Part shown: positions 14,413 to 56,946 of the stretch, in pieces
How the letters are laid out: the number at the start of each line of letters is the position of its first letter
Position numbering within the stretch: the stretch's first letter is position 1
Source of the DNA: Kappaphycus alvarezii
Lineage: Eukaryota; Rhodophyta; Florideophyceae; Gigartinales; Solieriaceae
DNA: 64,000 nucleotides
NCBI GenBank assembly: GCA_002205965.3
Contig: NADL03000024.1
Location: forward strand, 310,001 to 374,000
Reading direction: 5' to 3'
Notes under the pieces: model-generated
Seen by the model: the letters and a program-made list of their open reading frames with translations, nothing else
What the model was told of the DNA's origin: nothing
Database searches by the model: none
Position numbers and translations under genes: made by a program

Positions 14413-14635
14413 GTGAAGTTCGTTGCCGTGAAGTCTTATGGAACGGAGGCGCACGGCATGTTGGACACGGGTGCAGTTACAAACCTGGTGTCCTCGAACC
14501 TTTGCGAGAGGCCGGCACTCGGTTCGATGGCTACGGATCGTCATGTCTCCGTCGCCGATGGAACGGTGACTGAAGTTATTGGGTATGTACAGGAGGTTCC
14601 AGTCTCCTTTGGAACCCCTGCCGTGCCTCCAGGCT
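14413..14635 (+). pseudogene. Aspartic protease (N-terminal part) of element B
   Basis: The frame reads GMLDTGAVTNLVSSNL with an intact D-T-G-A, and then VADGTVTEVIGY and VPVSFGTPA. After PPGS the sequence jumps straight into RT sequence, so the C-terminal half of the protease and the start of RT are deleted relative to element C. Confidence 0.8.
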
Positions 14636-15785: not shown

Positions 15786-15839
15786 CGATGATCCAGTGGG
15801 ACGGCCCTAAACTGTCTGGACTAGAACCGGACGTCTTGG

Positions 15840-18188: not shown

Positions 18189-18368
18189 TGGGGTTGTGCG
18201 AGCTCGCCTGGGGAGATACTGTACGCTAGGCATTGTATACCCACCACCCGGCACAGTGCAGTAGATATATACTGTAATGTGTCGTGTGTACGTGGGAAAA
18301 GGGACAGGCCAGGTTACGCTTGGCCTAGGTAGGGCAGGAAAGAATAAAGGAAATTCCCAAGCGTTTCA
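18189..18368 (+). repeat. 3' LTR of element B
   Basis: It shares with the 5' LTR the words GCGAGCTCGCCTGGGGAGATA, GTATACCCA-CACCCGGCACAG, TGTACGTGGGAAAA-GGAC and the end AAGCGTTTCA. The copies differ at many positions, so the insertion is not recent. Confidence 0.8.
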
Positions 18369-18772: not shown

Positions 18773-18777
18773 AACCT
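18773..18777. repeat. Target-site duplication of element C (left)
   Basis: AACCT lies directly before the left LTR and again directly after the right LTR at 33,359-33,363. A perfect 5-bp match across 14.6 kb supports the boundaries chosen for element C. Confidence 0.8.
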
Positions 18778-19055
18778 CGTAAATCTTGTTTTCTGGTTAC
18801 TCAACTTTTCTTTTTCGGCCAAAAGGAACCTACTTTCCTTCCCCCGGGTTCCGGCCGCCCTCTCGTCCCCTTATAGTGGCGACCGGTCCGGTCTTTCTAC
18901 GCGTGTACAGTGCAAGTACAGTGTACAGTACTACTGTACACTGTACGAGCCCACTTCCCGCTCGTAAAGTGTGCAGTAGTACTGTATATTGCACGAGCAA
19001 ACCGGTCCAGTCAACCAGCGACGCTGGTGGTCATGCGAAAAAAACTCGTACGAAA
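18778..19055 (-). repeat. 3' LTR of element C (left copy)
   Basis: It matches the right copy through CTTGTTTTCTG, CTCAACTTTTCTTTTTCGGC, CGGGTTCCGGCCGCCCTCTC and GCAAACCGGTCCA. It carries an expanded ACTGTAC-rich middle (18,900-18,990). On the minus strand, the G-run next to its inner end (AGTGGGGGGCG, 19,055-19,066) is a good polypurine tract. Confidence 0.85.
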
Positions 19056-19257
19056 CGCCCCCCACTCGTGCAGACCACGAGCGCCACAAAAATAATATCG
19101 GACTCCAGCTCAGCAGACTCCAGCTTCCCCTCCCCACATAGGGGCCCTCTAATCGACACACTCCTCGTCCAGCCCACTCAAACACCACGTCCTCTACTCT
19201 TTCCATCGTCCCCAGTCCACACTTAACTTCTCAACACACTCACCTCTTCAACCTCCG

Positions 19258-19599: not shown

Positions 19600-20834
19600 A
19601 TAGCTAGAACCAAGCAACTCGCTCGTTTGAGCTCTGGCGGTCGCGCACTTTGGAATAATATTGCCACTAAGACGGCGCGAGTCGAACGCGGCGCAAAGGA
19701 ACCTCGTCCAGTGGCGAAGGCGAATCTGATGCTCTTGATTTCGGAACGGCCAGAAATCAAAAAGGTGCTCTTAATCGGTGGGGAGGAGCGCAACCCCTTC
19801 GTCATCCATACCGACTCCTGCGGAATCCATCCGTACCGCGTTTCGCGTAAGGAGTTCTTCAATCTCTTCGGAACCCACATTACGGATTACGTAACGCACT
19901 GCGTCGGTGACGAGGTTACGCGTGAGGACGCCTACCAACTCGGTCTCACGGAATCCCAGCACGATCGGCGCGTTTACGATGAGGTACGAGAAGGGGATTG
20001 GATTATTAGTACGGTCCGTTGGGACGACGATACCGAGACTTATCGAGCAGTCGATACGGAAACTGGAGAGGAGCACTCGGTTTTGCTCTACACTCTCGCG
20101 TTTTCCGGTACCCAAGAGCCAGGCGGTCACTCCATCTCTCGTCAGGCCCGGTTCTCCTTTGGGTGCGAAGGTCGACTTAGTGCTATGTCGTGCGTCCACA
20201 TGTCGTGCCAACTCCATCCTATTCGTCGTCTCTAGTTTTCATCAGTTCGTTCCAGGGAGTTATGTGCTTCCCCCGATTCTTTCTTGGCTCTCCTCGCACC
20301 GATGTGGTATTCCGTGATGAAACCGACCTATGCATCGGCTTCTCAATCTCCAACGCCCTCTGGCAGCTGGGTGCTCCTTCCGTTGCTAGATAGTGGTTGG
20401 AGTACTATGAGAGAAACGATCGAGATTTGAAGGCCGACTCTACGCGTAAGGGTCACATCAGGAGTTTGAGGGACGCCCAAAAGCGTGCGCCTCGCTGTTC
20501 GTTCATCCTTCATCAAATCTTCAGTCTCAATCCGGGCATCAAAGAGACTTTGGCCCTTCCTATTGGGGTCTACGTTGTGACGATACAGGGTTCCCGTGGT
20601 GTTCATCACTGTGTCACGATGAAAACTGTGACCAGCCAAATATGAGATCCTTGTGAGCGTTTTACCCTGTAACTCTCCTCTTAAGCTCTTCGTGAATGCG
20701 TCAGTGATAATTTTACGTTCATTTCCGTCTTAGAGGTCCGGAAGGAGGTGCTTGCGACTGCAGGAAAGCGCAGGAAACGGCGTCCAGATCGCAACTCCTT
20801 GTCCGTCCGGAAGCGCGAGCGGAGGATTAGGTAA
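19600..20834 (+). pseudogene. Antisense accessory gene of element C: H3-tail-like N-terminus plus peptidase-like region
   Basis: The reading frame begins (ATA at 19,600, presumably an old ATG) with ARTKQLARLSSGGRA and then IATKTAR, a near copy of the first 26 residues of histone H3. What follows is not histone. It has a middle section (YRVSRKEFFNLFGTHITDYV, GLTESQHDRRVYDEV), then GDWIISTVRWDDDTETYRAV, which looks like a small beta-barrel of Tudor type (weak). In another frame (20,280-20,645) come LCIGFSISNALWQLG and GVHHCVTM, spaced like the Cys and His of papain-type peptidases, and a basic end (KRRKRRPDRN). It lies on the strand opposite to gag-pol, between integrase and the 3' LTR. A frameshift near 20,200, a TAG near 20,391 and the lost start make this copy broken. 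Element D has a related gene in the same place. Function unknown. Confidence 0.7.
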
Positions 20835-21002: not shown

Positions 21003-22274
21003 TCAATTTTTTTGCTTTTCCTTACTTGAGTAAAGGGTCGATCTTTTCTTATATAGGACGATCCGGCGCGCATGAATTTCTTTCCTTGTAACGCGACCGG
21101 TGCAGGACATTAACTCGTAGCGAGGGTGGTTCGCCTTAGTCATCTGGCACAGTCCATAGAAACATGAGTCGAAGGCCGGCCACTTGCGCCCCTTATTGAA
21201 GGCCGCACCGTGCGCCACCAACACTCATATACAACTTCGAACTCCCTGACGTTTCCCTTGGTCCTCCAGGGTTCGCTAGATTTCTCCACCACACCAGCCC
21301 GCGTTCCAGAATCGGCTAAGGTCTCGATAAGCCGATGATGGGGCCTGTGTCACTGAGAAATGCTACCGAATCACTGGCCAGCAGCCACGGATTAATTCCA
21401 TACATCAGTCCGAAAGGGAAGGGTCGTCGCTTCGGTCGCGTCTGCGGTAACCATATAAGACTTTGGGAGGGCTTCTGCCAAGTCTGCCCCAAAGCGCACG
21501 ATCGACCTTTTGAGCATGTGCTTGATAGTTCCCACCATCCGTTCCGCGCGACCGTTTGCCATCGGCGCGTAAGCAAGTACCGCCTTCCACTCGACTCCCT
21601 TTTCTTTCATGTACCTTTGTACCGATCCCGCCATAAACGCAGTTGCGTTTCCGAGACGATTCTCTTTGCGGTCCAAACGGTGATATTATCTCTTCCTCGA
21701 TGAACCTCATCACCTTATCGCCAGTGGAATCCGTTGTGGCCCACGCTGTAGGCCACCCAGTCATATGTTCCACGGCAATCAGAATAAATGTTTTTCCTGT
21801 CATCGAAGCCTTGAATGGTCCAGCGAAGTCCATCGAAAAGGTCTCAAAGAGTACAGTAACGGGAGCTCTCAGACTCTAGTAATACTTCGGCAACCTTCCG
21901 GCATGCCGACACACATCACAACCTTGTACATACTCGGTGATATCACGGTACTTCCCAGGCCACCAGAATCGATCTCCCACGAACTTTATTGTCGAACAGA
22001 TGTCCCAGTGGCCAATATCATCGTGAAAGTTGGCCAGTGTCTCTGGTCGTTGACCGATCGGAGGTGCGACACAGAGTCTGTCATTCTCGCGACGAAAGAA
22101 GGTGTCATTCCAGAGAATGAAACTCTTCGCAATCCGTCTGACTGCGACCTTCTTCTTCGGGTCGGATTCTTGAACTCGTTCTCCGGATAGGAACCGTGCT
22201 ACATCTAGCAAGTGCGGTTCCAACCCATCAAACTTTGGGTCTAACCAATCCGCTGTCGCTACCAATCCTCCCAT
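21003..22274 (-). pseudogene. Integrase of element C
   Basis: Read on the minus strand, the domain begins near 22,274 and shows the zinc-binding H-x4-H and C-x2-C (HDDIGHWD near 22,030, GCDVCRHAG near 21,920). It continues with FETFSMDFAGPFKAS (first Asp), GNATAFMAGSVQRYM with the second Asp lost (G at that place), and APMANGRAERMVGTIKHML (Glu). The C-terminal end reads LVAHGAAFNKGRKWPAF and then KANHPRYELMSCTGRVTRKE. The parts lie in three frames. The missing Asp and the shifts make it inactive. Confidence 0.88.
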
Positions 22275-22283
22275 TATGTTCTA

Positions 22284-22721
22284 TCATTTCTTCCCTCTGC
22301 CTTCTGATAGTTTTTCGCCAGAGATAATCGGCCGCCCCATTCGCCATTCCGGACGATACTTTATCTCGAAGTCGTATTCCGCCATTAAGTCCATCCACCT
22401 TGTCAACCGCCCATGAACATCTTTCTTCTTGAACGCAGATTGAAGGTCTTGATGATCCGTATAGATGACGAAAGGCTTTTCAGACAGAAGGTACTCTCGA
22501 AACTTCTTAAGAGCGAAACCACGGCTAGTGCTTCTCGTTCGCTTGTGGAGTAGCGGCACTCCTTGTCCGTCATCGTTCGAGAAGCGAACTGAATGGGATT
22601 TAGTTTCCCTCTGAGAGAGGACAACCCCAAAGGCTGCCGAGGAGGCGTCTGTTTCTACTAAGAAAGGAAAACTAAAATCCGGAAACGCCAATACTGGAGG
22701 AATAGTCAGTTTCCCCTTCAA
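22284..22721 (-). pseudogene. RNase H of element C
   Basis: The 145-residue frame reads IPPVLAFPDFSFPFLVETDA, VVLSQRETKSH, FVIYTDHQDLQSAFKKKD and RWMDLMAEYDFEIKYRPEWR. TDA and YTDHQ are standard Ty3 RNase H motifs. The centre (22,580-22,630) needs a frame change to recover the SRTMTDKECRYST segment. It lies directly between RT and integrase. Confidence 0.88.
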
Positions 22722-22734
22722 GTATTAAAAAGCC

Positions 22735-24353
22735 TCTTGCATCTCAAAGTCCATTCGAAAGCCTTCTTGGCAACGTCGCCGCGTGCAACACTGCTGAGCT
22801 GTCGGAAAAACTTCTTATGAACCGTCGGTATTACCCCGCGAGTCCTAGAAAAGTCCTGAGTTCGGTACCTTTTTCCGGCACCGGAGCTTCAACAATATCT
22901 TTGATCTTGTCGGGATCCACCTTCACACCACTTGAATTAACGATGTGACCAAGCAACTTCACTTCTGATTGGGAAAGGCTGCACTTGGAAACCTTCAACT
23001 TCAGCTTCGATTATTTGATCCTCCTGAACACTGATGGACAGAACGAGAGATAGGGAGCGAGGGAGCCAGACAGAGAATGAAGGAGAGAGCGGAAGAGCAG
23101 GAGAGGGAAGAGAGAAAGGGTAGAAATAGTGAGGGATCGAGAAAGAAGATGAGAGAGAAGAAGGTGTGAGGAACTTTACTCAGATAGAAAATGGAGAGAG
23201 ACCGGGGCTTGTATAGACTTCAAGGCGAGTCGACTGATGCTTTCAATTGATCGAAGGAAGTTTCCGGAAGAAATGTAGATGACGGTGAGTGTCTAACCCT
23301 ATCCTGCTTGAGCTGATCTAAATTTGATCAACTCAAGCATACAGCACTGTACAGTGCATAAACATAACGGTCAAGTTCTAGGTTAAACGGTAAAGTACAG
23401 TAATAACTCTAAGCCTCTTTGCGAGTTGACAGCTGTCAGAAAAAGGCAACGAAGCGAAATTACAGTAACAAACACTTCCTTGCAATGAGCTTATGTGTTC
23501 CTCCAACGTCTTAGAGAAAATAACACATCGTCCCCATAAACCATAGCAAACGGTAACCCGCGAAGGACCTCGTCCATCATCCTTTTAAACGTCGCTGGAG
23601 CGTTCATGGGTCCAAACGGCATTACCTCTAACTTGTACGTTCCATATAGAGACACAATTGTGATCTTTTCCTTGCAAGTTTCGGACATCGTAACCAGCCA
23701 GTATCCTGGTAAAGGTCCAGTGTTGTGATGAACTCTGCGCCAGGGATTTCGTCGAAGATTTATTCTATTTTCGGTAACGGCCAGCGGTCTGGTTTCATCA
23801 CCCCGTTCAACTGACAGTAGTCGACGCAGAACTGGGGCCTTCCGACTTTCTTCGTTGCTATCACTACCGGAAAGGACCAGGCAGACCTTGACGGCGTAAT
23901 AATTCCAGCTTCTAATAATTCCTTCACCTCTTTCCTTACCACTTCATTATGCTTAGGCGGCATTCGGCGTGCTTTCGAATGTTTCGGAGTCTCGTTCGTC
24001 AACTCAAAAGAATGTATCACCGGCACATGAGCAGGCTCCAGATCGTGAATGTCCCACGCTATGACATCCGTATCCTTGAGAGATTTCGCCAGCTCCTTCT
24101 GATTCCTCTCTTCGAGGTGGTCCAGCTTCGAGGCCAATAGAGCCGAGCGGTCCACCTTCATTTTTACCTCTTCCCTAATTTCAGCCTTCGCCGAGCGCGG
24201 TAGATCAGGCTCGTACGGTTCCTTGTTAATGATGGCTAAGACCAGGTCTTGTTCGGTATCCGATCCACCATCGGTTTCGCTAGACGACGAGAAAGGGTGG
24301 AGAGATTCCTCATCGTCCGAACCTTTGGGGGACGTAAAGTCCTCACTGTCCAT
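22735..24353 (-). pseudogene. Reverse transcriptase of element C, split by a 438-bp insertion
   Basis: From 24,353 downward the frame reads an acidic leader (EDFTSPKGSDDEES) and then RT: EVKELLEAGIITPSRSAWSF, RPQFCVDYCQLNG, VMKPDRWPLPK. The next frame (23,491-23,688) reads YKLEVMPFGPMNAPATFKRM and AMVYGDDVLFS, where the catalytic Y-x-D-D is YGDD. After the insertion (23,033-23,470) the domain resumes with KLLGHIVNSSGVKVDPDK. Removing the insertion and one AACACT restores continuity with element B's sequence. Frameshifts remain. Confidence 0.85.
23033..23470. mobile_element. 438-bp insertion of unknown type in RT of element C
   Basis: AACACT lies on both sides (23,027-23,032 and 23,471-23,476), a likely 6-bp target duplication. 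The insert starts with a 130-base purine-rich low-complexity stretch on the plus strand (GAGAGAGA-like, 23,040-23,170). It ends with a stretch containing CACTGTACAGTGCA and AGTACAGTAATA. It has no coding capacity, and its ends are not inverted repeats of each other, so it may be a non-autonomous element or a SINE-like sequence. Confidence 0.65.
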
Positions 24354-24357
24354 CTGA

Positions 24358-24744
24358 GCCCATTGATTCTGGACGGCTCATTGACGAATGGTAACAATCC
24401 CTCTTCTTCTCTTATAACCAAAATGACGTGTGAGAGTGCGTAATCAATGCGCGTCTGGAGAGATTCCAGAGTCAGGCTTCCAGCAACAACGTCAAACGGG
24501 GCATTATTGACAACAGGAACTCTAGACGCACAACCATTGACCCATAAGACACCGGAACTCCGTTGAGACAACCAAAAACCTTGGCGACAGTTCCGTCTAC
24601 TACCGTCTCCTAACGGTCGGTTTCCGTCGGAATGAAAGCAAGCCTTTGGCAGAGGTCCCAAGATATCAAGTCAGGAACTGCAGCCGTGTCCAAAAGGGTA
24701 TGAGTCTCCGTTCTATACAACTTTACGGCTACTTCCTTGAGTCG
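24358..24744 (-). pseudogene. Aspartic protease of element C
   Basis: On the minus strand, just inside the left flank of the nested chromovirus, the frame reads RRLKEVAVKLYRTETHTLLD and then TAAVPD. The catalytic D-T-G is D-T-A here. The C-terminal part (24,236-24,661 frame) reads PVVNNAPFDVVAGSLTLESL and YALSHVILVI. The Gag end at 31,754 joins this segment in frame (SSGVPR then RLKEVAVK) when the nested element is removed. Confidence 0.8.
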
Positions 24745-24749
24745 GCGGG
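24745..24749. repeat. Target-site duplication of the nested chromovirus (left)
   Basis: GCGGG here pairs with GCGTG at 31,754-31,758, one mismatch in five. With the element removed and one copy kept, the Gag-protease frame of element C is continuous. This is the main support for these boundaries. Confidence 0.7.
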
Positions 24750-25245
24750 CGAGCAGATAAAGGTGGACTGTGGTTGAAACTTTGGTTGAGGCTGGCTGGG
24801 TAAAGCCGGCCGCTCCAAACCAGGGTTTATATAGAACTGAAGATAGCTACAAACTAAAGGAAAATGCAGTCTAACAGTAGCGAATTCAAAGGTATTCCCG
24901 TAAAAAGCCCTGACGGTATCGTAAGTAGCGCTTTCAGAATTGTAGTCGGCAAGAGTGACATACTCTGACAAGATGTAAGAAGTACATTGGTCCAGATGGC
25001 ATGGGATAGCAAGGCGACTTTTGATTGGTAAAGCAATGATATAATATCCCAGTGTGCAACTCGCCCGTAACTATTCCAAGTGTACCAATGGGGTCAAACG
25101 CTGTGTTCAGAACTGTAAGGAAAGTGTAATGACAGCAAAGTGCCTAGTAGCCCTGGCTGCAAGGTTACCAGTGGTTTGAATCTACAGTACAGTATATGCA
25201 GTGAATTCGTGTAAAGCTGTAAGGTCTGTGAAGTGAAATACAACA
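24750..25245 (-). repeat. 3' LTR of young chromovirus (left copy)
   Basis: 496 bp. In element orientation it starts TGTTGTATTTCAC and ends ATCTGCTCG. It contains TATATAGAAC (24,827-24,836 on the plus strand) and a TACAGTACAGTATA word. The match with the right copy is almost perfect. Confidence 0.95.
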
Positions 25246-25257
25246 TCACTCCCCCTT
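25246..25257 (-). promoter_or_regulatory. Polypurine tract of young chromovirus
   Basis: On the minus strand AAGGGGGAGTGA lies directly before the 3' LTR, whose first bases are TGTTG. It overlaps the integrase stop codon (TAA) at its start. It would prime plus-strand DNA synthesis. Confidence 0.8.
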
Positions 25258-26681
25258 ACAGAGAAGAATCGCCCCGATTCTTGAGGTTCTGCTTGTACTT
25301 ATTCAAAAGTTCTTGTGAATTCTTGAGGTATGATTCGGGAAGCCACGAGTTCTCATGATCTCCGTACCCTTTCCATTTGACAAGGAATTTATTTTTTCCA
25401 CGTTCTTTTTTATGAGCGAGTATAGACTCAACTTCGTATTCCTCATGTCCATCTTGAAATTGGAGTGGTGGCGGTGGTGGAATTTGTCGGTTGAATTCAT
25501 CTTCAAAGAACGGTTTCAAGAGGCTAGCGTGGAACGCATTATGTATTCCTCTGTCGATCATCGGTTGAGATAACTGCAGACGGTAAGTTACACCGTTAAT
25601 GTCCTCTGTTATTTCAAAGGGACCACAATACTTTGGGTTCAGTTTGCGTGATCCAGCCGCATCTTCAAGTGATAAGTTCTTTGTTGATAGCCAAACCTTA
25701 TCACCAATCTTGAACGTAGACGGCCTTCTTTTCTTGTTTACATATTTTGCGGTGGACTCATTGGATTTTCGGATCTGATTCTGGGCTTTCCTTAATGCTT
25801 CTTGCATATGTTTTAGAAAACCTGCTGCCGCTGGATTGTCTGACGCTAAAACATCTAAGGGTACTGTTCGTGGTTGAATTCCGTAATTGAGGAAAAATGG
25901 TGAGAAAGTTGTGGTGACATTCACAGAGGAGTTGTAAGCAACTTCAAAGTCTACCAGGAAATTATCCCAATCTGATTTGTCGAAGCTAACGAAAGCACGG
26001 ATCATTTCCTCTATTTTCCTGTTCATTATCTCCGATTGTCCATCAGTTTGTGGGTGGTATGCAGAGGAGGGGGATATCTTTGTTCCTAGTAGAGCAAAAA
26101 GTTTTGTCCAAAACTTGCTCATGAAGATGGGATCTCGGTCACATATGATATTCTCTGGTAATCCATGATTTCGGTATACGTGATTCTTGAACAGCAGTGC
26201 TGTTTCAGGAGCATCTGTGTTTGGTTTCGTTGGTATTATTCTGATCATCTTAGAAAGTCTGTCAACGACTGTTAACACGCCGTTGTTTCCATTCTCGACT
26301 TTGGGAGAGGTGTGATGAAATCCATGGTTATGTGGGTCCATTTGGTTTTCGGTGGTTCTAGTGGTTGTAAAAGACCTGCGGGTTTGATTGGTTGCTTTGG
26401 TTCTCTGGCATTGGCAGGAACGTAGTATCGGATTACATCCGATCTTAAATTTTTCCAATAAAACTTTGGTGATATTCTGTTGATAGTTTTGCTTATTCCT
26501 AGGTGTCCCGTGTTGGGAGTGCAATGATAGTCATGCAGGAGCTTGACTCTGAAATTTCCTTCTGGTACACAGATCTTCTTGTTTTTAAGTAGAAGCATCC
26601 CTCGACGCTCAAAGGGAGCTTAGGATCTTGGTAATGGGTTCTGAGGTTCTCATCCCTACCATAATCTTCTACCAACCCCAC
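25256..26681 (-). pseudogene. Integrase with C-terminal chromodomain (young chromovirus)
   Basis: From 26,598 down: HDYHCTPNTGHLGISKTINR is the H-x-H half of the zinc site. Its C-x-C half appears only in another frame (SCQCQRTK). KWTHITMDFITPLPKS holds the first catalytic Asp. A shift near 26,295 leads to VVDRLSKM, then CDRDPIFMSKFW (second Asp), SSAYHPQTDGQSEIMNR (Glu), and KIGDKVWLSTKNL. The last 55 or so residues (about 25,270-25,440) are a chromodomain: EYEVESILAHKK, KFLVKWKGYGDHENSWLPES, with the aromatic cage residues in place. Chromodomain integrases steer insertion to methylated-H3 chromatin. At least two shifts break this copy. Confidence 0.92.
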
Positions 26682-27271
26682 TAACTCAGTGTTTGTGAAT
26701 GATATGGTCGAAATGTTATTGGATTCTGAGGATGTCTTGGTAATAACTTCTTGAAGTAATGAATTGTTTCGTGATAAGGTGACGGCACATCTTGTGGTTG
26801 CCTCGATAGTGCGTCCGCCACTACATTTGATTTTCCTGAGATGGGTATTATCTTGAAGTCGAAATTAACTAATCTTTCCAGCCATCTCACTTGTCTCGGG
26901 GACAAGTTTTCTTGGGTTTCTAGGTATCTTAGGGGATAGTGGTCCGAGTGAATGGTGAATGAATTACCATAAAGGTATGATCTCCACCACTTGAGGGAAT
27001 CTACAATGGCCAAAAGTTCCCTTTCATGGGCCGCATAGTTTTGTTCCGCATCATTAAGAGTCCTGGATGCAAACGCGACCGGCCTTTTAGAACCTAATTC
27101 TTCCTGTTCCAGCACTGCACCAATTGCATACTGTGATGCATCTGTGGTTACGTAGATAGGCAGTGTGGCGTCGAAATTTCTGAGAACCGGTGCGCTACAA
27201 AGTGTTTGCTTGAGTACTTTGAAGGCATCATCTTGAGTGTGGCTCCATTGGAAATTCACGTTTTTCGTCAA
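26681..27271 (-). pseudogene. RNase H of young chromovirus
   Basis: This 196-residue frame reads SAPVLRNFDATLPIYVTTDA, YAIGAVLEQEE, AFASRTLNDAEQNYAAHERE, FTIHSDHYPLRYL and VVADALSRQPQDVPSP. All the usual RNase H and connection motifs are present. It is separated from RT by a single-base shift at about 27,275-27,285 (the frame before reads LAKP and then stops; the next continues [12 protein letters not shown]). Confidence 0.93.
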
Positions 27272-28770
27272 TTCTGTGAGGGTTTTGCAAGAATTGAACA
27301 GCCTTTTATGAATCTCCGGTAATAATTGACAAAACCAAGAAAAGACTGTACTTGTTGCTTATTCTTTGGTATCGGCCATTCCATGACTGCACTTATCTTG
27401 TTTGGATCAACAGAAATACCACTTTGAGAAATGATGTGTCCTAGGTACTCGACTTCTGTAACTCCGAAGACACATTTAGATAATTTGCCAAACAATTTTT
27501 CTTTTCTGAGGATTTCGAGTACAGTTCGAATATGATCCAAGTGATCCTTCCATGTCTTACTGTAGATGAGGATATCATCCAGATAGACGATCACAAATAA
27601 GTCGAGCTGATCCTTGAAAATGTCATTCATTAGGTTCATGAAAGTTGCTGGCGCATTAGTGAGTCCAAACGGCAGAACAAGAAATTCAAAGTGCCCGTAT
27701 CGTGTTCTGAAGGCGGTAAATGGAATCGAATCTTCGTGTAGTCTAATCTGGTGATACCCAGATCTAAGATCAATTTTGCTGAAGAACTTTGCTCCTTTAA
27801 GCTGGTCGAAAATGTCGTCAATTCGTGGTAAGGGATAGCTGTTTTTTACAGTAAGCCGGTTTAAGGCTCTGTAATCGACACACATCCGTAGACTATCATC
27901 CTTCTTGCTCACGAATAGGATAGGAGCTCCCCAGGGGCTCTTACTAGGTCTTATAAACTCAGCTTCTAGTAGTTCGTCCAACTGTTTTCGGAGTTCTGAC
28001 ATTTCTTTGTCAGAAAGTCTATAGAGACCTTTCTTTTGTGGTTCTGCTCCTTCCTTTAATTCTATTTCAAAGTCTTGTTTCCTTCTCGGTGGCAAACCTC
28101 TTGGGAGTTTCTCTGGAAACACGTCAGCAAATGTTTCCAAAACCTTCTGTATGTCTCGAGGGTATACTGGTGCTCTTGTTTCACTAGAATGTAACGGTCT
28201 AAGTAAAACTGCAAATAACTCTTTTTTCTCATCGAAATCACTAACTATGGTATTGAAAGATACAAAAGGACTCACTACGGCATCATCAGCAATAAATATG
28301 AATGAATTTCCCTTATGTTCGATTTTCACCTCATTATTAAAACAATTGATTTTTGCCCCATGCGAGGCGCACCATTCTTTCCCAAGAATTGCATCATAAC
28401 GCTTCAATGGGCTTACTGCAAAGTACAGAGGTTCAGTATAGGCAGTTATATGTACAATGACAGCATTTACCAATTCTTGAAGTATCTGGTCCGCACCGTT
28501 GGCCATTTCAGCAAGCTCTCTGGAATCTCGGGTCTTTATTTGATGTTTCTTGCAAAAATTTCACTCAAGAAGTTGATCTCACCACCAGGGTCTATGAGGA
28601 TTTTTGCTGGTCCACCAGCAATTGTACCCTTGACAATGAGAAGGCCCTTGTGATTTCTCTCGAATGCAGGGGAGAATGTTTCAATGAACGTTGCATTCGA
28701 TCTGATGGTGGACACAATGGACCTTTTTGTTTGATTCAATGATAACTCCCGAGTTTCTTTGTCTAACACA
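27268..28770 (-). pseudogene. Protease and reverse transcriptase of young chromovirus
   Basis: The protease starts in the frame of 28,536-28,769 (GLLIVKGTIAGGPAKILIDP). The catalytic D-S/T-G is DPG here, a likely inactivating change. It continues in the 412-residue frame 27,268-28,506 with [22 protein letters not shown] follows: [66 protein letters not shown] (Y-L-D-D), and [20 protein letters not shown]. The RT is otherwise intact. The two frames are joined by a shift near 28,510. Confidence 0.93.
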
Positions 28771-28813
28771 AGGTTTTAATGGTTCTTCAATGACTGGAAC
28801 TGACTGGGGACCT

Positions 28814-29767
28814 TCAATCAGTTCCTCCGGGCTTTTGGGCAGTTCTTGGCCATGTGCCTTTCTGTCTGCACCTGAGACAGAGACCTTCGCGCATACATCT
28901 TTCACGTTCTTCTTTGTCAAGCTTCTGTAAATTGGGAGTGTTTCTTTTTAGCCCCGGTATCACTTCTACGTTCCCAATTTCCATTGGTACAGGACTGCTG
29001 GTTCCAGCAAAAGAGCTTCCATTTCCATTCCTTCCTCCAGAAGACTTTGGTAGGTTACCGGGTCCAGAACGCCGATAGGCCGACTCTACTCGCTCAGCAT
29101 CCTTCATTAGATCGGAGAGGTTGACGTATTCTTTGGTGCACAACGCCTTCCAGATATAGGGCTTCAAACCGCGAGAGTAACGATCTATCTGGTCTTTAAC
29201 TCCAATATCGGGGATGTCGAGTATAATTTTGTTGAAGTCTTCGTTGAAGGTAGGAACATCTTTGACTTGTTTCCAGCGGGCGAGTTTGTCTCGAGCGATC
29301 TTCTCTTTGTTCAGCGTTTCAAAACGCTGGATCAAAGCAACCTTCAGGGACTGCCAGGAATTTATTCCTTTCCCTTCTTCTGTCTTGAAGTGGACCATCC
29401 ACCATTCATGGGCATTTCCAGCCAAGTAGCTGAGTGCTATGTGTAGGGGTCCATTGCCATCATTTCCCCGAGGTAGTTGTCCATTTGAACGCACCAGCTG
29501 CAATTGATCCTTTCCCAGTGAATGTAGTTGGCTTGTTTTTCTTTGGGCCAGCCTGACTGTCCACTAGGGCATTATTTGACGAGCTGGCCTGGTTTCGTTT
29601 ACGAGTTCAGATTCTAAGGAGGATACCTTTTGCGCTGCAATAGAAAGCTCTGATCTGTGTGCCGCAATTTGGTTATTGGCGTGCTCAAGATTCTGCTGCA
29701 ACTGAAGCACCATTTGCGTAAGGGACTCTAGGGTGACTTGCGGCTGATCCATAGCGATTAGGTTCAC
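28814..29767 (-). pseudogene. Gag of young chromovirus
   Basis: Starts at the ATG at 29,767 or the second one 15 bases on (MDQPQVTLESLTQMVLQLQQ), with a heptad-like N-terminus. Three frames in turn give KKNKPTTFTGKG, QMDNYLGEMMAMDP and LHIALSYLAGNAHEWW. The core then reads VALIQRFETLNKEKIARDKL. The RNA-binding knuckle begins CLRCRQKG, but a missing base then replaces HMAKNC by TWPRTA, so C-x2-C-x4-H-x4-C is broken. Each break is a single-base shift. Confidence 0.88.
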
Positions 29768-30324
29768 AAAGCCAGTAACAGTATTTGGCCTGGTATCTGA
29801 GAGAAGTTTCCGACCTTACACGTGTACACGTGGTGATACGTGTACACGATTTCTGTAACACCTGGAGTAACAGAGAGTCTCCTAGATGGTTCCTGGGCAA
29901 ACTACCCACGATGCGAAGCCTCCAGCAAAATGCCAAATGATTTTTGAAAAAATTGTGATTTATAACCTGATTGGTCTCCTTGCACCTTCAAATTCCGGTC
30001 TGGTGACCTAGTGGTTAAGTGTAAGTAGCTCCTGATGAGTGGTCGCGGGTTCAAATCCGCCAGGAGCACTTACAAAAAGTTCCTTCTTGACGTAAGGGTT
30101 GACGTCAGTCACGTCGGGTGCGTTATAGTAGCCCTTCTTCCGATTCTTGCTTTGCGGTGGTTGTCCTGTCTAGGTCCTGATGGCGATACGGACTTACAAT
30201 TGTAAGTCCTACTACAAGGATCTGGGGGCAGCAGAGGAAAGCTTGCAATCACAGCGGAAGGGTGAACACAACACACACACGAAGTCGATTGAGAATGAAC
30301 TTATTGCTTATTTTCCTTTTTTAC
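29768..30324 (-). promoter_or_regulatory. Leader between zinc-finger ORF and gag, with palindromes
   Basis: This 557-base non-coding stretch contains CACGTGTACACGTG (29,819-29,832, perfect palindrome), a second CGTGTACACG 18 bases on, the tRNA-like hairpin at 30,001-30,073, and the perfect 20-base palindrome GGACTTACAATTGTAAGTCC at 30,190-30,209. Roles could include packaging, dimerisation or transcription. None is shown. Confidence 0.6.
30001..30073 (+). ncRNA. tRNA-like hairpin with A-box- and B-box-like motifs
   Basis: On the plus strand TGACCTAGTGG (30,004-30,014) resembles a Pol III A box, and GGTTCAAATCC (30,048-30,058) a B box. The arms GTAAGTAGCTCCTG (30,021-30,034) and CAGGAGCACTTAC (30,061-30,073) pair over 13 bases with one bulge, and GCGG/CCGC pairs inside. 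It does not fold into a standard cloverleaf with a matching acceptor stem, so I do not call it a tRNA gene. It could be a tRNA-derived SINE piece or an element RNA structure. It runs antisense to the chromovirus genes. Confidence 0.45.
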
Positions 30325-31083
30325 TCAAAAACAAGCAATTTTAATGGAAAAAAAGATACTAATTGTGACCCTGACTGTGAGTCGATGCTGAGCCCCGTTC
30401 TGATGGCGGACAAGGTCTTGTTCACTGAACAACTCAATATTGCAGTCCTTGCACTTGTACTCCTTCTTGCTTGTACGGCGGATGTGACGACGGGAACGGA
30501 GGTGCTCGAAGTACTGAACGCGGCCGGAGCAGGTCACTTGACAATGACGACAATGGAACGGAGAGGACTTCGGGTTCTTGTTCATCCGCGGCCTTTTCGA
30601 GGGCCTAGCCTTGCGGATTCGATGGTTTACCACCCTTTGGATCGACACAGAGGCGGCGTCCGGCAGTACTTGAAGCCTTCTCGGAGGAGCCCTTGAACTT
30701 GTCGGTGGCCTTGACGGGTTCGAGACGGTCGGACGCGACGGCTTCCTCGGGACCGGGGGTAAGGATCGAAGGCCGGTCGATGGGGTAGGGCAAACGATCG
30801 AAAAGGGGTGCGAGGCTCTTCGACCGTAACAAAGGGGATGCCACTGACAGTGCTCGGGGTAAGACAAGATCTTGGCAAGTCGGCGTCGGTGTCTTGGGCT
30901 CCTCGGGGCTGAGTAAGGCGATGGGGTTCTCGGAGTCGACGGAGGAAGCGGGGTCTTGGGATCTTCTTCCTCGCCAATCGGTAGTATTGGCGAGGTGGGC
31001 GGGGAACGAAAGTCGGCGAGGTCTTCTGAGTCGTACTCTGACGGCGATGGAGGGCGGCCCTTTGACTTCCTGTTGTACGACAC
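30325..31083 (-). CDS. Extra ORF of young chromovirus with two C2H2 zinc fingers
   Basis: An uninterrupted 252-residue ORF, the first in the element, starting 174 bases after the 5' LTR and on the same strand as gag-pol. Residues 1-150 are rich in Pro, Ser and Arg. Two fingers follow, each C-x2-C-x12-H-x5-H: at about 176-201 (FHCRHCQVTCSGRVQYFEHL and RSRRH) and about 209-233 (YKCKDCNIELFSEQDLVRHQ and NGAQH). The five-residue H-H spacing is typical of the U1/matrin/JAZ fingers that bind structured or double-stranded RNA. Standard chromoviruses have no such gene. It could be a captured host gene or an accessory RNA-binding protein. It is the only long ORF of the element without a frameshift. 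The final 15 residues are hydrophobic and may not be original. Confidence 0.75.
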   Translation of the reverse strand: MSYNRKSKGRPPSPSEYDSEDLADFRSPPTSPILPIGEEEDPKTPLPPSTPRTPSPYSAPRSPRHRRRLAKILSYPEHCQWHPLCYGRRASHPFSIVCPTPSTGLRSLPPVPRKPSRPTVSNPSRPPTSSRAPPRRLQVLPDAASVSIQRVVNHRIRKARPSKRPRMNKNPKSSPFHCRHCQVTCSGRVQYFEHLRSRRHIRRTSKKEYKCKDCNIELFSEQDLVRHQNGAQHRLTVRVTISIFFSIKIACF

Positions 31084-31256
31084 TGTGGGTTACCGCGTAA
31101 GGGTCAGAGTGAAAAACACAATGTTAGTCTCTGTTTGCAATCGGGCAGCTGAGATAAATCTAGTAGAGATTTTATCCCAACTGGCGGATTGGAAAAACGC
31201 ACAATAAGGCACAACTTACTTGCGATGCTACCACGATGTGGGGTGTTAAGCGCACA
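31084..31256 (-). other. 5' leader of young chromovirus after the LTR
   Basis: In element orientation this follows the 5' LTR. A TGGTAGCATCGC lies 18 bases after the LTR end and could be a displaced primer-binding site. No better candidate sits at the LTR edge. Confidence 0.4.
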
Positions 31257-31753
31257 CGAGCAGATCAAGGTAGAACTGTGGTTGAAACTTTGGTTGAGGC
31301 TGGCTGGGTAAAGCCGGCCGCTCCAAACCAGGGTTTATATAGAACTGAAGATAGCTACAAACTAAAGAAAATGCAGTCTAACAGTAGCGAATTCAAAGGT
31401 ATTCCCGTAAAACAGCCCTGACGGTATCGTAAGTAGCGCTTTCAGAATTGTAGTCGGCAAGAGTGACATACTCTGACAAGATGTAAGAAGTACATTGGTC
31501 CAGGTGGCATGGGATAGCAAGGCGACTTTTGATTGGTAAAGCAATGATGTAATATCCCAGTGTGCAACTCGCCCGTAACTATTCCAAGTGTACCAATGGG
31601 GTCAAACGCTGTGTTCAGAACTGTAAGGAAAGTGTAATGACAGCAAAGTGCCTAGTAGCCCTGGCTGCAAGGTTACCAGTGGTTTGAATCTACAGTACAG
31701 TATATGCAGTCAATTCGTGCAAAGCTGTAAGGTCTGTGAAGTGAAATACAACA
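31257..31753 (-). repeat. 5' LTR of young chromovirus (right copy)
   Basis: 497 bp, nearly identical to 24,750-25,245. The outer end is followed by GCGTG, the partner of the left target duplication. Confidence 0.95.
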
Positions 31754-33100
31754 GCGTGGAACTCCTGAAGAGTTTATCATCGATGCCTGTGTAACCGGTA
31801 ACCTCTTGGATAAAAATCTCCTTAAAACCTTTCTGGCCTCCTCGGCATCCCCGCTCAATAGTTGCCCGAAATTCATTCCCGTGGCAGCGAAAGCCAGTTC
31901 AGCGATCACGTTATACTTCCCTACATGATCTTTGAGTCCCCCGGATTTCTTCTTAGACCTGCAGTTTCCTCTCTTATTCTTCTTCCTTGGGACGGGAGCC
32001 ATCATCGACGGGCCATTAGCAGGGGCTTTGTTCAAGATGGCATCAGGATCCATCAAGTTTTCACTCCTCTGTTTCGGGAGTGCCTGCCCGTCGGCACTTC
32101 TCTGCGCGGCGGCAACCACGTCCTTTTTGCGAGATTCCTGAACAACAGCAACCTTTTCATCGTCCTTCGGCTTCTTCATTTTCAACTCTTCTCCAGACTC
32201 AGACCGGGCCCTAGCAGCTCCTCCTCGCTGATCATCACCACGAGGGTTCTTGGACCAGCTTTTTGCTTCCGAATGGCCTCTTCTTCCACAAATCATGCAA
32301 CTTGTATCTCTATGCGAATTATGCGGGCAATAGTTCGCCCTGTGGCCATTCTGGTTGCAATACCTGCAAAAATAATCTGCCTCCATCTTCACTGGAGGGT
32401 CGTACCGTCGAATTGTTTCTTCAATAGCAACGATGGTTCAGCGAATTGGTCGGCCAACTTATCCACCTTGTTTTTCAAATGCTGAGAACTACGAACATCT
32501 GGCCTTTGAAGGATCCTCTTCGGCGTTCCACTAGATGAAGCTCCTTGACTTCCTTCTCTGTAGAACGTCTTCTGTCCACTCATGAAGCCCTAGGTTGCTT
32601 TTTTGAGCCCCTTGTAGTCCATAGGGGCTCTAAACATCACTAACTGCGCCATGTCTTGAATTTCTGTCACTGCTTTCCGAAGCAGGCCGAACGAAGCGAA
32701 ATCATTGAATCCAACTCTCTTATATAGAGCATACAACTGCGCCTGGGAGCCCTATAAGTCCTTCGGGTCAAACCCAGCGTGGATAGTCTTCTGTAGATCT
32801 TCTTCCGGCTTCGGGGTCTTCTCAAACTCCTCTATAAGCTTGGTCTTAGCGGTCGAATAGTCCTTCGCCTCCTCCGGCAACGCTCTGTCTCTCGCAAATG
32901 CCTCATAGTAACGCTCAAACGCTGCGCCCTCGAGGTTGCAAATGATCTGGAGTGCCTTTTCCTCGTCGCTTTTCCCGCGCATAACTACATTTTCGTACGC
33001 CAAAAGAAGGCGCGCGAAGTCGGAAGAAGGGGGGCCGTCGAAGGAAACGTGGGGTCTCAGAGAATTTTTTCGTGTTCGTAGTCGACCTTGGATGCGGTAC
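31754..33100 (-). pseudogene. Gag of element C
   Basis: On the minus strand the frame begins near 33,100 and reads PHVSFDGPPSSDFARLLLAY, then ENVVMRGKSDEEKALQIICN and EEFEKTPKPEED. It stops at 32,752. Other frames continue with SFGLLRKAV, then SSQHLKNKVDKLADQFAE. Two knuckles follow: CRYCNQNGHRANYC (complete) and CMICGRRGHSEAKSW (last Cys lost). The C-terminus MNFGQLLSGDAEEARKV runs into the chromovirus insertion at SSGVPR. The order and motifs match element B. Several stops and shifts are present. Confidence 0.85.
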
Positions 33101-33102
33101 CA
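33085..33102 (-). promoter_or_regulatory. Primer-binding site of element C
   Basis: On the minus strand TGGTACCGCATCCAAGG starts directly after the 5' LTR. Element B has TGGTACGCATCCAAG at the same position, so both use the same primer tRNA. Confidence 0.65.
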
Positions 33103-33358
33103 TGTGATGCTTGTTTTCTGTTTACTCAACTTTTCTTTTTCGGCCAAGCGGAACCTATCTTCCCTCTCCCGGGTTCCGGCCGCCCTCTCGTCCTCTTGTA
33201 GGGGCGGGCGGTCCGGGGTTTCCACGCGTGTACAATGCAAGTACAGCGGGAAGTGGGCTCGTACTGTACAGTGTACAGTAGTACTGTATACTGTACGAGC
33301 AAACCGGTCCAATCACACAGCGACGCTGGTAGTCCTGCGACACAAAACTCGCACGACA
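33103..33358 (-). repeat. 5' LTR of element C (right copy)
   Basis: 256 bp, TG to CA, with AACCT at its outer side. It is shorter than the left copy mainly in the ACTGTAC-rich middle (33,240-33,300). It begins TGTGATGCTTG, where the left copy has CGTAAATCTTG. Confidence 0.85.
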
Positions 33359-33363
33359 AACCT

Positions 33364-52870: not shown

Positions 52871-53585
52871 ATGGTGCGGACGAAGCAGTTCGCGAGGTTG
52901 AGCACGGGAGGCAAAGCGCCACGAAAGAAGATCGCTACCAAGGCGGAGAGGATTTTGAGGGATTCGGAAGCAGAGGCCGCGTCTAAGATACATCCGCAGA
53001 CAAAGGACCTTCTTGGGAGATCGCACATTACCAAGTTCAACTACATTTCTTCGAAGGAACCCGAACTCGTTGTGTTCCCCCCTGGATCCCACAAATGACA
53101 AGGTTTCACGCCTGTGAGTTTTCAGCCTTACTCGGAAATCATGTAATGGCGCAGCTTCCGCCTTCACTGCCGGGGAGAGTACGAAGCAGGTTGCTTTAAA
53201 ATTGAGCCTTACGGGGTCCGTACATGACTCTCGCACGTATAGAACGGTGTCTGAGATGGACTGGAAAGTCAAGTCTATAATGTAAGATGAATAAGCAGTG
53301 GCTAACAAGGGAAAAGTAGAGGCCACTAGGGAATTTCAAACTATTCTACTGTAAAACATTTCTTTTGGGGATCTAAATAGCTCCTTCATGTATGAGATCA
53401 ATGAAGCGGGTCTATCCACGCTGGGTTCGGACAACCGGTGGGAGGCGATCTTCGAGATTTACGAATTGTACCAAGAACACCCTGGCCGGAAGCTTTACCT
53501 TCGCTTTATCCGCTCTCTGGAACCCCGTGTTGATGAGACCAGGTACCTTTCTTTCCCGCTCCTCAAGAACCCTTTCACAGATTAG
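52871..53585 (+). pseudogene. Antisense accessory gene of element D: H3-tail-like N-terminus
   Basis: ATG at 52,871 opens a frame reading VRTKQFARLSTGGKAPRKKI and then ATKAER, almost the H3 tail to residue 26. It carries on with non-histone sequence to a TGA at 53,096. Broken frames then follow the same order as the element C gene: FHACEFSALLGNHVMAQL, LTGSVHDSRTYRTVSEMDWK, and finally YEINEAGLSTLGSDNRWEAI and EPRVDETRYLSFP to 53,585. The peptidase-like Cys and His are not kept. The gene lies on the strand opposite to element D's pol, 0.9 kb beyond the integrase end, as in element C. An in-frame ATG at 52,808 would add 21 unrelated residues. I prefer 52,871 because the tail starts there. Confidence 0.68.
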
Positions 53586-54506
53586 AAAGAAGGATACATT
53601 AGCGCCTCTATAGACATTGGATTGGGAACATTAGGAACCGGGGGCGACGCGAAGCGTTGTTTAGACCATTTCAAGTCACATTTGGCTTATAGCCACGCGA
53701 ATAGCTTGGAAAAAGGTCCCATACGGGACCTATTTGACGCATAAAGTCAAATACCCCCTAGAATACTATACTCGAAAAGACTAGACTATGGACCCCTCCA
53801 TCAAATTCGTGTTGGCGTTGGACTCCGCCGTTCACATCGTCTCTATAGAAGGTTAAAACGGTGTCAGGCATAGCGCCGCGATGAATACTCCGACCGGCCA
53901 TCTACTAGACGCGGTTGAAACTTCGGTCTTTGAGTTCTTCGAGAATTCCGTGGTTGAGTCCATGGGCAGAAGTTCGTGCTTCAACACGACATTGGAAGGT
54001 CTAAAGCTGCCTCTAAGAATTAGGCAGGCGTCATAGCTTTCCATCCGCAGTGTCACGACCAAATCGGAAATCCGTAAACGTCACGGCCGTGATGGAACGC
54101 AATCGGTGGTAAAGGGAAAGCCAGTTAGCCCAAAGCAGCAGTTTTTACGGTGATTCAAAAGATTCCATCACTCAATGGCGTTCTATGTTATACTGCATTC
54201 CTCAATTTTGTCGGGCGAGATTGATACTTCTTAGAAGGTTATCAATAAACAATGAAAGGGTGACCAGAAAATATCTTGTAGATATGCGTATAAACCAAAA
54301 AAATAAACATAATATTCAAACAAACAGGAGACAGCTTCTACTACAACGGTAATTCTGCGACAATTATGATCAGAGAGAGTTGGGTACACTAATTTTGCAG
54401 GTTGCTGGGGGGGAGGGCACAAAAGGAACATAACCCTTGAGTGGATGACACGTTGGAAGTGGCGTCCACCATACGAGGTCAGCCAATACCTCGGCTGATC
54501 TCCCTT
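53586..54506. other. Gap between accessory gene and integrase of element D
   Basis: No gene recognised. The position matches the shorter gap at 20,835-21,002 in element C, so the extra length may be an insertion or decayed 3' part of the accessory gene. Confidence 0.45.
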
Positions 54507-55700
54507 CTATATTCGGCACGGCCCGAGGTATCGGAACTTGAGCGCTGGCCACTTAACAGTTTTCTGCAAGGCCGCCCCGTGTGCGACAAGGGCCCAGTCC
54601 CTGACGTTTAACCATACCGGTTCCGCAAAGACATCATTTCTTGATACAAGCTCTTGATCATCCCTTCGTCGTGCGTAGAGCGCCAATTTGCTGTAAATCG
54701 GCAATGGCTCTCCGAGGCGTTGAAAATGAGTGCTAGGGCCCCTGATGATGCCCCGGGTCGTACCACTCCGTACATCAGCTCGAACGGGGATGCTTTGGAG
54801 GCGAGAATATGACGGCAGTATCCATACAAAACGATCGGCAGACTCGCCTTCCAATCTATTCCTTGACTTAGAAGCATTTTCTTAACGACAGTCTTGATAG
54901 TGAGTCCTATTCTCTCTGCTCTATCATTCTACTCGATGGTATAGGTCAGAATAGTGCTCCAGGTTACTCCTTGTTTCCCCAAAAAGGTATCAAGAGAAGC
55001 AGCGGTGAGGCATCCATCGTTGTGGGATAACATGTTCTTCAGGGGACCAAAATGGGATAAAATTTCTTTCCGTATAAACTAAGCAACAATCTCGGCCGAT
55101 AAGTCATTGGTGGACAAAGCGATTGGCCAACCAGCTAAATGCTCTACCGCAATGAGCAATGCCTTCTTCTGGTGCTTCTAATTAGTAAGCGGCTCGGCGA
55201 AATCGATCGAGCAGGTATCAAATATGTTCGACAACGTGGTTTTCAGGCTTGTAAGGTATGGTGGACTCTTTTTTGCCTTCTGACATTCCTTACAACTTTT
55301 TGCGTAGTTTCAGATGTCACTATGCGTAAAAGCCACCAGTAGCGGTTAGGGACGAACTTATTCGTGGTTTAAATGTCCTAGTGCCCAATAACGTCGTGGA
55401 AGCTGTGTAGTATCGACGTCCTATCCTCAACGAAGGGGACAATCTTGAGACTCATTTTCGTTCGTTGCAGTAGTTTCCCTTTCCAAACCATGAAGCGCTT
55501 CGCCATAAGCTTGATTGCACGCCTCATGGCCTCTTCTTCTCCTTAGATCTTGAACTCCTGCGAATAACGAGCGACCTCAATAACATGAGGTTCCAATGAA
55601 CGGCCCTCCAAAACAGAGACTGAAGGAACTTCTGCAATCAAGTCTCCTCTGTCGATACCTGAGGATGATGCAGAAAAAGTAGGCGCATCTTTCGAAAGTT
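54507..55700 (-). pseudogene. Integrase of element D
   Basis: The zinc site survives as HDVIGH near 55,395 and KSCKECQK near 55,285. The first Asp region reads DTCSIDFAEPL near 55,205. The later part gives GIDWKASLPIVLYGYCRHIL and ASKASPFELMYGVV (54,760-54,865). The C-terminal end reads WALVAHGAALQKTVKWPALK, as in element C (LVAHGAAFNKGRKWPA). Central catalytic residues are lost in broken frames. Confidence 0.8.
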
Positions 55701-55789
55701 AGTCCTAGCGCGCAGGCTATAATCGACTTCGAGCTCATACACCGCGAGGAAGTCCATCCAAAACACCAAGGTTACGTAAATTTAGTTCT

Positions 55790-56239
55790 TTTTGAGGGTA
55801 TGGCGAAGGGCTTGATGAACGGTAGCCAACCTGAATGGCTTTGTCAACAACAGCTATACGTGAAACTTCCGCAAGGCCAAAACTACTGCTGGAGCTTCCC
55901 TTCCACCTGCGGAATAGTTCTTCTCAGCCGAATGCATGGTGCTGCTAGAGTACTGGACGGGATTTATTCTACATTATTACTTTTCTCGGGGTTAACTGCC
56001 CCTTATGCGACGCTTAAGGCGCCAGTTTCCACTATAAACGAAGAATAGAAGTATGGAAATGCCAGAACCAATGGGGTAGTGAGCTTCTCTTTCAAAGTCT
56101 CGAATGCCTCCATCATTTTCTTTGTCCAGTTGAAACCAGTATTTCCAGACGTAGAAGCGTGAAAAGCGCCAGACATATCGGCAAAGACCCAAATAAAACG
56201 GAGATAATAACTGGAAAGACCGAGGAAACCGCGCAACAC
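55790..56239 (-). pseudogene. RNase H of element D
   Basis: The frame 56,003-56,239 reads RGFLGLSSYYLRFIWVFADM and then EAFETLKEKLTTPLVLAFPY, with IVETGALS where ETDASS is expected, so the first catalytic Asp is lost. It continues in broken frames to about 55,790. Confidence 0.75.
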
Positions 56240-56275
56240 AGTCGTATCACTTGGGACCGCAGATTACTTGATGAA

Positions 56276-56745
56276 CTAAACCTTCTCTTCATCGACGTGA
56301 ACTCTGGTTTTGTCAACTTTTTTTCCTAGCGACTTCACCGCTGATTTCTCAAAGTCACAAATAGTGATCTTGAGCTTCGAGCACGCCTTGCCGATAGCGT
56401 CGAAAATTTTATTTAAGTGATTAATGTGCTCCTTGACGTAGTTAAAATGAAGAAAAAGTAGTCCAGATAAACGCGGGCGTAACGGCAAAAAGGTAGTTAT
56501 CTCCTTAAATCCTCGCTCATACGAACCTGCGACCATCCTACGAACAAGTCGAGGGTATTGAATACAGAACTACTCTTTAGGTCATCGCATATTTCTTCTA
56601 TCTTGGGCCAACGATCGGCCTTCATCTTACGGTTCAAAGTGCGGTGGCCCATACAGAATCTGGGCTTTCCGTCCTTCTTGGAAACGATCACTACAGGAAA
56701 GGACCATACAGAAAACACTGGGGTAGTAATACCTGCTTTCAGCAT
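56276..56745 (-). pseudogene. Reverse transcriptase of element D
   Basis: Reads MLKAGITTPVFSVWSFPVVI, SKKDGKPRFCMGHRTLNRK and DDLKSSSVFNTLDLFVGWSQ. The central MPFG segment is deleted. The catalytic box appears as VYLDY. A later frame reads VKEHINHLNKIFDAIGKACS. It is truncated and inactive. Confidence 0.78.
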
Positions 56746-56946
56746 TTTTCAACTATTTATCGGATTGTATCGTTTCTGTGCGGAGCTAGGCGACGAATTC
56801 TGGGGTAAACAAGAGTTTGGTTCTTTCGCTCAAATTTTTTTCCACTGTAGCTGCGGTGGGACGGAGCTCTTCAATCTTCCAAGCAACTATTCCATTGTTT
56901 CGGAGGAAATAGTTTATTCGGGACTTTGATTCTTCTTGAAGGTGCG

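Follow-up and report, generated by a model that had tools for sequence, protein, structure and literature searches.

The genome of the red alga Kappaphycus alvarezii carries an old, selected and element-borne gene family, whose members lie antisense to the pol region of a Ty3/gypsy lineage and whose products start with a copy of the histone H3 tail. The starting point was a decayed copy in a stretch of 64,000 nucleotides (contig NADL03000024.1, positions 310,001 to 374,000), hereafter referred to as the window. A first-pass annotation of this stretch had proposed that the Ty3 lineage inherits the H3-tail gene as one of its own parts, as opposed to a chance insertion. This proposal holds in a stronger form than first stated and is based on the antisense position next to pol in 34 of 40 loci, LTR pairs in four of four extended loci, a correlation between gene and pol distances, the gene and pol trees, the retention of the tail in 38 of 41 copies from the host genome (own copies), and the existence of distant homologues.

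The H3-tail gene copies of the window

In the window, the accessory gene of the element termed C is located on the plus strand at positions 19600..20834, antisense to gag-pol. The frame that starts at 19600 reads I-ARTKQLARLSSGGRALWNNIATKTAR and continues into a non-histone body. This copy has ATA in place of the ATG start codon (the position is M in 29 of 37 aligned family rows), one frameshift near 20271-20290 and several in-frame stops, and is therefore considered a pseudogene of a living family. Comparison with H3 assigns the segment at 19603..19680 (plus strand) to H3 positions 1-26, of which 16/26 residues are identical to the canonical tail, while the best identities reach 21/26 among the other own copies and 23/26 among external homologues. 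Searched alone against the H3 chains of the PDB, the window copy obtained an E value of 0.03, the homologue P0013 one of 1.6e-6 and a 22-sequence family profile one of 1.3e-12; these matches and the tail identities rule out a chance likeness to H3. The first-pass description of a protein headed by an H3-like tail with a non-histone remainder is thus correct, as the match to H3 is confined to the tail, and a histone-fold domain is absent, with no Pfam family above cut-off in the proteins scanned. Frame reading and the family alignment place the codons of a Cys (20331..20333, plus strand) and a His (20607..20609, plus strand) in the columns of the conserved, putative catalytic Cys and His, and the proposed gene end at 20834 agrees with a C-terminal basic stretch, as read by eye. 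An Rfam scan of the window gave no match.

The boundaries of element C had been described as fixed by LTRs and an AACCT duplication, with the antisense gene between the integrase and the 3' LTR, and all of these landmarks were located. The 3' LTR lies at 18778..19057 (minus strand, inner edge approximate) and the 5' LTR at 33103..33358 (minus strand); the two agree at 217 of the 255 positions aligned without gaps, and their alignment contains another 26 gap columns. They are flanked by the left and right copies of the AACCT target-site duplication at 18773..18777 and 33359..33363. A primer binding site (PBS), differing by one mismatch from the PBS of other copies, was found at 33084..33102 (minus strand) as the single match in the window, where 0.02 matches are expected by chance. 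Broken pol remains comprising reverse transcriptase (RT), RNase H and integrase were identified at 21003..24749 (minus strand), with the individual pol pieces extending over 21006-24744, and the pol domains recognized in the window include Integrase_H2C2 (7.7e-14) and RVT_1 (5.4e-6). A younger LTR element, whose LTRs are 98% alike, is nested inside element C at about 24750..31753 and has its own pol on the minus strand, with matches at 26849-28041.

A second, broken copy of the H3-tail gene, assigned to element D, is found at 52871..54033 (plus strand), where it starts with MVRTKQFARLSTGGKAPRKKIATKAER and contains stops and frameshifts. The pol remains of element D are located at 54423..56971 on the minus strand, antisense to the gene, in line with the earlier claim that this element has a related gene in the same orientation to pol. 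An LTR pair for element D was sought and none was found. A further Ty3 element occupies the plus strand at 12922-18368, with LTR pieces at 12922-13062 and 18225-18368 that are 84.7% alike. Its gap between pol and the 3' LTR shows no match to the H3-tail gene, so the gene is not present in every Ty3 element here; the same gap exhibits an antisense stop-to-stop frame of 228 aa at 17183-17869 (minus strand).

A gene family linked to a Ty3/gypsy lineage

The genome search for further copies, advised in the first-pass annotation, covered 336,021,096 bases in 884 contigs and turned up at least 152 sequences that match the window protein (565 candidates, 150 scored). Forty loci were fetched for analysis of their context. 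In 34 of them, the end of pol is located directly downstream on the opposite strand, whereas the remaining six (L007, L010, L015, L025, L032, and L039) show no pol piece within the stretch examined. Four loci were extended, and in each of them LTR-like direct repeats (73-91% alike over 150-442 aligned bases) enclose both pol and the gene, which bears out the antisense placement inside the element. One of these, the copy C2, exhibits TG..CA LTR ends, a PBS and the flanks AATAC/AATAT (4/5 alike). The pol of the copy at L021 matches RVT_1 (2.8e-31), RNase H (6.5e-35), rve (3.2e-7, just under the cut-off) and, weakly, an aspartyl protease. The features by which a Ty3/gypsy element is recognized were all found: RT, RNase H and integrase in the order RT-RNase H-integrase, LTRs, a PBS and a short target duplication.

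Distances between gene copies are correlated with distances between the adjoining pol copies, with Spearman coefficients of 0.57, 0.60, 0.58, and 0.70 in four tests (33, 33, 34, and 20 rows, in which one copy is entered twice, as L001 and as the window copy winC, and L031 is included with its two gene copies), and in each test none of 2000 permutations reached so high a value. In the gene tree, the subfamilies A, B, C, C2, and D are each monophyletic (support 0.70 for A). The pol tree, restricted to those rows that offered sufficient pol sequence (34 of 40), recovers B, C2, and C+C2 as monophyletic; L028 breaks A and D, and C is paraphyletic to C2. The two trees thus agree broadly in outline. 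A host gene family, as opposed to a gene of the element, is ruled out for the own copies examined by the antisense pol, the LTR pairs and the trees, and a one-off fusion is ruled out by the family matches in the genome together with external homologues.

Two side observations concern the organization of individual copies. Within about 3 kb, the locus L031 contains two copies of the H3-tail gene that belong to different subfamilies and run in opposite directions, at 3874-4977 (minus strand) and 6544-6969 (plus strand). All ten copies of subfamily A that were inspected (L001-L010) exhibit a pyrimidine-rich stretch before the start codon, which is absent from B and C2.

Outside the host, three protein searches returned 1, 8, and 112 matches, the last at E values up to 0.1 and including many plain histones. 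Twenty-five external matches were assigned to the family (P0001-P0023, P0026, and P0027), and 17 of them possess the H3-like start. Ten members carry a species name, which is Chondrus crispus, a red alga, in every case, and each of these ten opens with the H3-like tail. The eight of the 25 without the H3-like start begin inside the body and represent fragments, broken copies or wrongly predicted starts. The deep lineages P0013 and P0015, only 24-26% identical to P0003, have kept the H3-like start. In the tree, own copies and Chondrus/ENA proteins form separate groups, with the exception of P0017 (“lgn”), which groups with own subfamily A.

Most own copies are broken. Nevertheless, the H3-like start, scored as present when at least 20 of 26 tail positions are retained, was found in 38 of 41 distinct own copies, the exceptions being L016, L026, and L029. 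A start restricted to a single locus, which the first-pass annotation had named as an observation that would speak against its view, was consequently not seen, either among the own copies or among the external homologues. Intact relatives without the start had been named in the same sense, and no clear case was encountered, although eight external members begin in the body and three own copies have lost much of the start.

Conservation of the tail and the C-terminal domain

Between subfamilies, conservation is highest in the H3-like start, with 61% identity in the tail and 23, 33, 33, 41, and 38% in the other regions of the protein. Within subfamilies the difference is small (76% in the tail vs. 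50-74% in the body). Pooled dN/dS values for tail and body within subfamilies are 0.24 and 0.34 in A, 0.30 and 0.57 in B, and 0.34 and 0.29 in D, which makes subfamily D the exception to the rule that the tail is better kept than the body; the comparison of C with C2 gave 0.09 and 0.14. Between subfamilies, the tail shows a dN/dS of 0.12 at a dS of about 3, and a value for the body is not computable at saturated synonymous sites. As these ratios are well below 1, the tail has been kept as a protein sequence. It has persisted through 60-77% divergence of the rest of the protein and through the split from the Chondrus lineages.

The pattern of residues within the tail is uneven. Nearly invariant are A1, R2, T3, Q5, S10, T11, G12, and G13, and residues 1-5, which directly follow the Met and mostly begin with Ala, form the best conserved part; K14 is poorly kept. 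In the following counts, which leave out the duplicate row winC, the copies are related and the residues are therefore not independent events. Position 4 is K in 30 of 38 own copies and R in six, with R, Q or L in subfamilies C and C2. At position 9, L is found in 30 and K in six of 39 own copies, and the external tails exhibit K, R, A, N, Q, L or M; several Chondrus proteins and, among the own copies, subfamilies C and C2 retain K9. Of 40 own copies, 38 have K at position 23, and 36 of 39 have R at position 26. Position 27, readable in 39 own copies, is V in 25, M in six, I in five, F in two and N in one, and is never K; in the 17 external tails it is V, F, R, Q or G, and again never K. When a majority residue was assigned manually to each of 11 lineages, K23 was found in all 11, K9 in four and K27 in none. 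M or I at position 27 with Arg at -1 occurs in all 11 readable rows of subfamilies B and C, where B shows AARMS (AARIS in two rows) and C shows AARIS; it is absent from A, C2, and D, with V or F at this position, and from the external lineages. The H3 of the host itself is canonical in the three of three genes fetched.

In structure models, residues 1-28 are disordered. The modeled C-terminal domain matches C39 peptidases, Josephin, staphopain, cathepsins, deubiquitinases and other clan CA enzymes, with weak scores (best E values 0.011 and 0.027; Z 8.9 for the full model and 7.9 for the domain model, against a tool background of 7-8). A Cys (34/37), a His (29/34) and an Asp (31/32) are conserved in own copies and occur in the same order in external members. 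The C-terminal half may therefore be said, with moderate support from the models, to resemble a papain-fold (clan CA) peptidase, in which the conserved Cys, His, and Asp would be putative catalytic residues, judging from the alignment and the topology of the model. A basic stretch follows this domain at the C-terminus. No Pfam family exceeded the cut-off for the window protein or three own copies, nor for the 22 members of alignment A4, in which nine families appeared at E 0.013 or worse, each in one member; a PAF domain was matched weakly once (E 0.076). NCBIfam gave no family for five proteins, and a viral structure library contained nothing below E 0.001.

Possible roles of the H3-like tail

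Mobile elements are silenced through histone H3 marks. As predicted from its sequence, the product would consist of three parts: an unstructured copy of H3 1-26, a body of no recognized fold, and the C-terminal peptidase-like domain with its basic tail. Removal of the Met would expose a free A-R-T-K-Q end, by which an H3-like tail would be presented to the H3 enzymes and readers of the host. The usual repressive marks could not be written on this tail, since position 27 is never and position 9 is often not a lysine. In trans, it might then act as an anti-silencing decoy or pseudosubstrate, and the peptidase-like domain would possibly cut or deubiquitinate what the tail captures; alternatively, this domain may be an effector aimed by the tail or have a separate function. 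The lack of a methylatable K27 in all lineages, beside a kept R26, K23, and N-terminus, argues for an anti-silencing role of the pseudo-H3 tail. We see about an even chance that the family represents an element-borne antisense accessory gene whose product acts in trans in this way. Nuclear action, binding through the tail, anti-silencing and any enzyme activity are what we infer from these features, and the first-pass suggestion that the element protein draws off chromatin readers or modifying enzymes appears plausible.

PRC2 is inhibited by H3 tails in which position 27 is M or I but not by those with K, R or E there, and Arg is its preferred residue at -1 (PMC6513997). In the subfamilies with AARMS or AARIS, the tail would match these known K27M/K27I inhibitors and, by analogy, a K27M-like inhibitor would be the strongest special case of an anti-silencing role. 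Among 43 SET matches in the host, L050 matches EZH2 at 2.2e-36 and the next family, NSD3, at 3.8e-21 (L049 and L050 are identical stretches), so that, judged by this sequence match, an E(z)-type SET domain is encoded in the host genome. About half of the repeats of another red alga, Cyanidioschyzon merolae, are reported to carry H3K27me3 (PMC5405695). A more specific proposal would be a natural oncohistone-like weapon, in which a tail with replaced K27 (and often K9) on the antisense-encoded peptidase-like protein traps repressive H3 methyltransferases in trans and unsilences the copies of the element; this is possible but rather doubtful. V, the commonest residue at position 27, as well as F, Q, and G lie outside the PRC2 inhibitors described in PMC6513997, and the R of P0013 and P0015 is not expected to inhibit. 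With V, F, Q, R or G at position 27 in many lineages, a role as pseudosubstrate cannot hold for every lineage. The decoy reading, in turn, has to accommodate the K9 kept in C, C2, and several Chondrus proteins, the eight of 25 external matches without the tail, and the broken state of most own copies. Apart from this, several SET matches of the host are near-identical (L053, L055, L056, and L059 among them), which suggests a multiplied, maybe mobile or repeated SET family.

Other explanations assign the tail a different task. It could mainly be a nuclear import or histone-chaperone signal, with the C-terminal domain as the working part and the loss of K27 either neutral or a way to avoid modification. 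An H3 importin contacts the tail at K14 and K23, and both K23 as the most constant lysine and the additional basic C-terminal stretch would suit such a signal; however, a plain signal requires neither residues 1-13 almost letter for letter nor a consistently changed K27, and the poor retention of K14 is likewise at odds with it, which leaves this explanation fairly unlikely. The emphasis might instead lie on the enzyme, as an H3-tail-clipping or chromatin-directed peptidase or deubiquitinase for which the tail would be a tethered substrate, a propeptide or an aiming device and not a decoy. The papain-fold matches, including cathepsins, staphopain, Josephin and other deubiquitinases, and the conserved Cys-His-Asp are consistent with this possibility, and cathepsin L is described to cut the H3 tail (PMC9749902). 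The support for the fold is moderate, though, specificity cannot be read from a fold, and the catalytic residues derive from alignment and model topology; we regard the enzyme-centered explanation as unlikely.

If the tail does act as a decoy, its targets might be readers of the unmodified H3 N-terminus (PHD, ADD or UHRF1-like), with consequences for DNA methylation or K4 reading and not for PRC2. This variant would make sense of the strong conservation of residues 1-5 right after the Met and of the weak PAF-domain match, but the presence of R, Q or L in place of K4 in C and C2 fits it poorly, and it seems highly improbable. The idea that the tail is a captured or decaying H3 fragment hitch-hiking in the element without function might appeal to the pseudogenized window copies and the stops in many own copies. 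It is already contradicted by the low dN/dS of the tail at synonymous sites near saturation between subfamilies and by the survival of the tail beyond the divergence of the body and the Chondrus split, and is barely credible.

The H3-tail gene among known systems

The closest arrangement is that of the antisense ORFs of plant Ty3/gypsy elements (aORF-3R), with Grande gene23, RIRE2 and Retand TRP28 as examples, which likewise have a gene in antisense orientation in the interval from pol to the 3' LTR; it is kept across copies and species, and some products are nuclear (PMC7264820; PMC11963269). In contrast to the TRP28 or SMC-type domains described there, the red algal gene combines an H3-tail start with a papain-like end; the word “histone” does not occur in the main texts of either paper. 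The antisense ORFs of gypsy elements thereby gain a case with a testable mechanism.

Subfamilies B and C share with EZHIP/CXorf67 and with H3 K27M/K27I the replacement of K27 by M or I next to Arg at -1, but EZHIP belongs to a mammalian host and resembles H3 over 12 residues (PMC6513997), whereas here a mobile element encodes the first 26 residues, in most lineages with V27. As in the viral H3-tail mimics influenza NS1 and SARS-CoV-2 ORF8, a protein of a parasite copies part of the H3 tail; in place of the short ARKS-like motifs reported for viruses, however, the copy consists of the N-terminal 26 residues at a true N-terminus and lacks K27 (PMC10208167). Accessory genes thought to oppose host silencing are also known as VANC of VANDAL elements (PMC10398659; PMC5735166) and as TET/JBP of fungal transposons (PMC12730594). 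Unlike the present gene, VANC binds DNA motifs and TET/JBP oxidizes DNA, both described in these sources without histone mimicry.

In open-licence PMC papers, no description of a mobile or LTR element carrying the H3 tail itself was found, which accords with the first-pass statement that no such LTR element is described. Should the tail act as a decoy or pseudosubstrate, it would give direct access to the arms race that transposons run against Polycomb/K9 silencing in an early-branching plant lineage. The element family would also provide a series of natural H3-tail mutants, in which A1-R2-T3-Q5, S10-T11-G12-G13, P16-R17, A21, K23, and R26 have to stay and K27 has to go.

H3-like N-termini are also found on other proteins. 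PAF15 (PCNA-associated factor) is a host replication factor whose H3-like N-terminus binds H3-tail readers; its resemblance to H3 is shorter than that of the element protein and it has no peptidase-like domain. In the JGI metagenome protein P0101 (284 aa), an H3 tail with 22/26 identical residues and A at position 27 is joined to a stretch resembling a chromodomain, whose Pfam Chromo match (E 8.6e-5) narrowly misses the cut-off, and to a C-terminus in which Cys, His, and Asp are present. As the likeness of this C-terminus to the family is weak (BLASTP E 0.04 for that piece) and a profile comparison aligned the tail only, P0101 was not counted as a member and is possibly an independent or distant H3-tail fusion; a scan of viral contigs with P0101 revealed no relative. 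In the NCBI protein P0105 (193 aa), the start is followed by low-complexity sequence unrelated to histones or to the H3-tail family.
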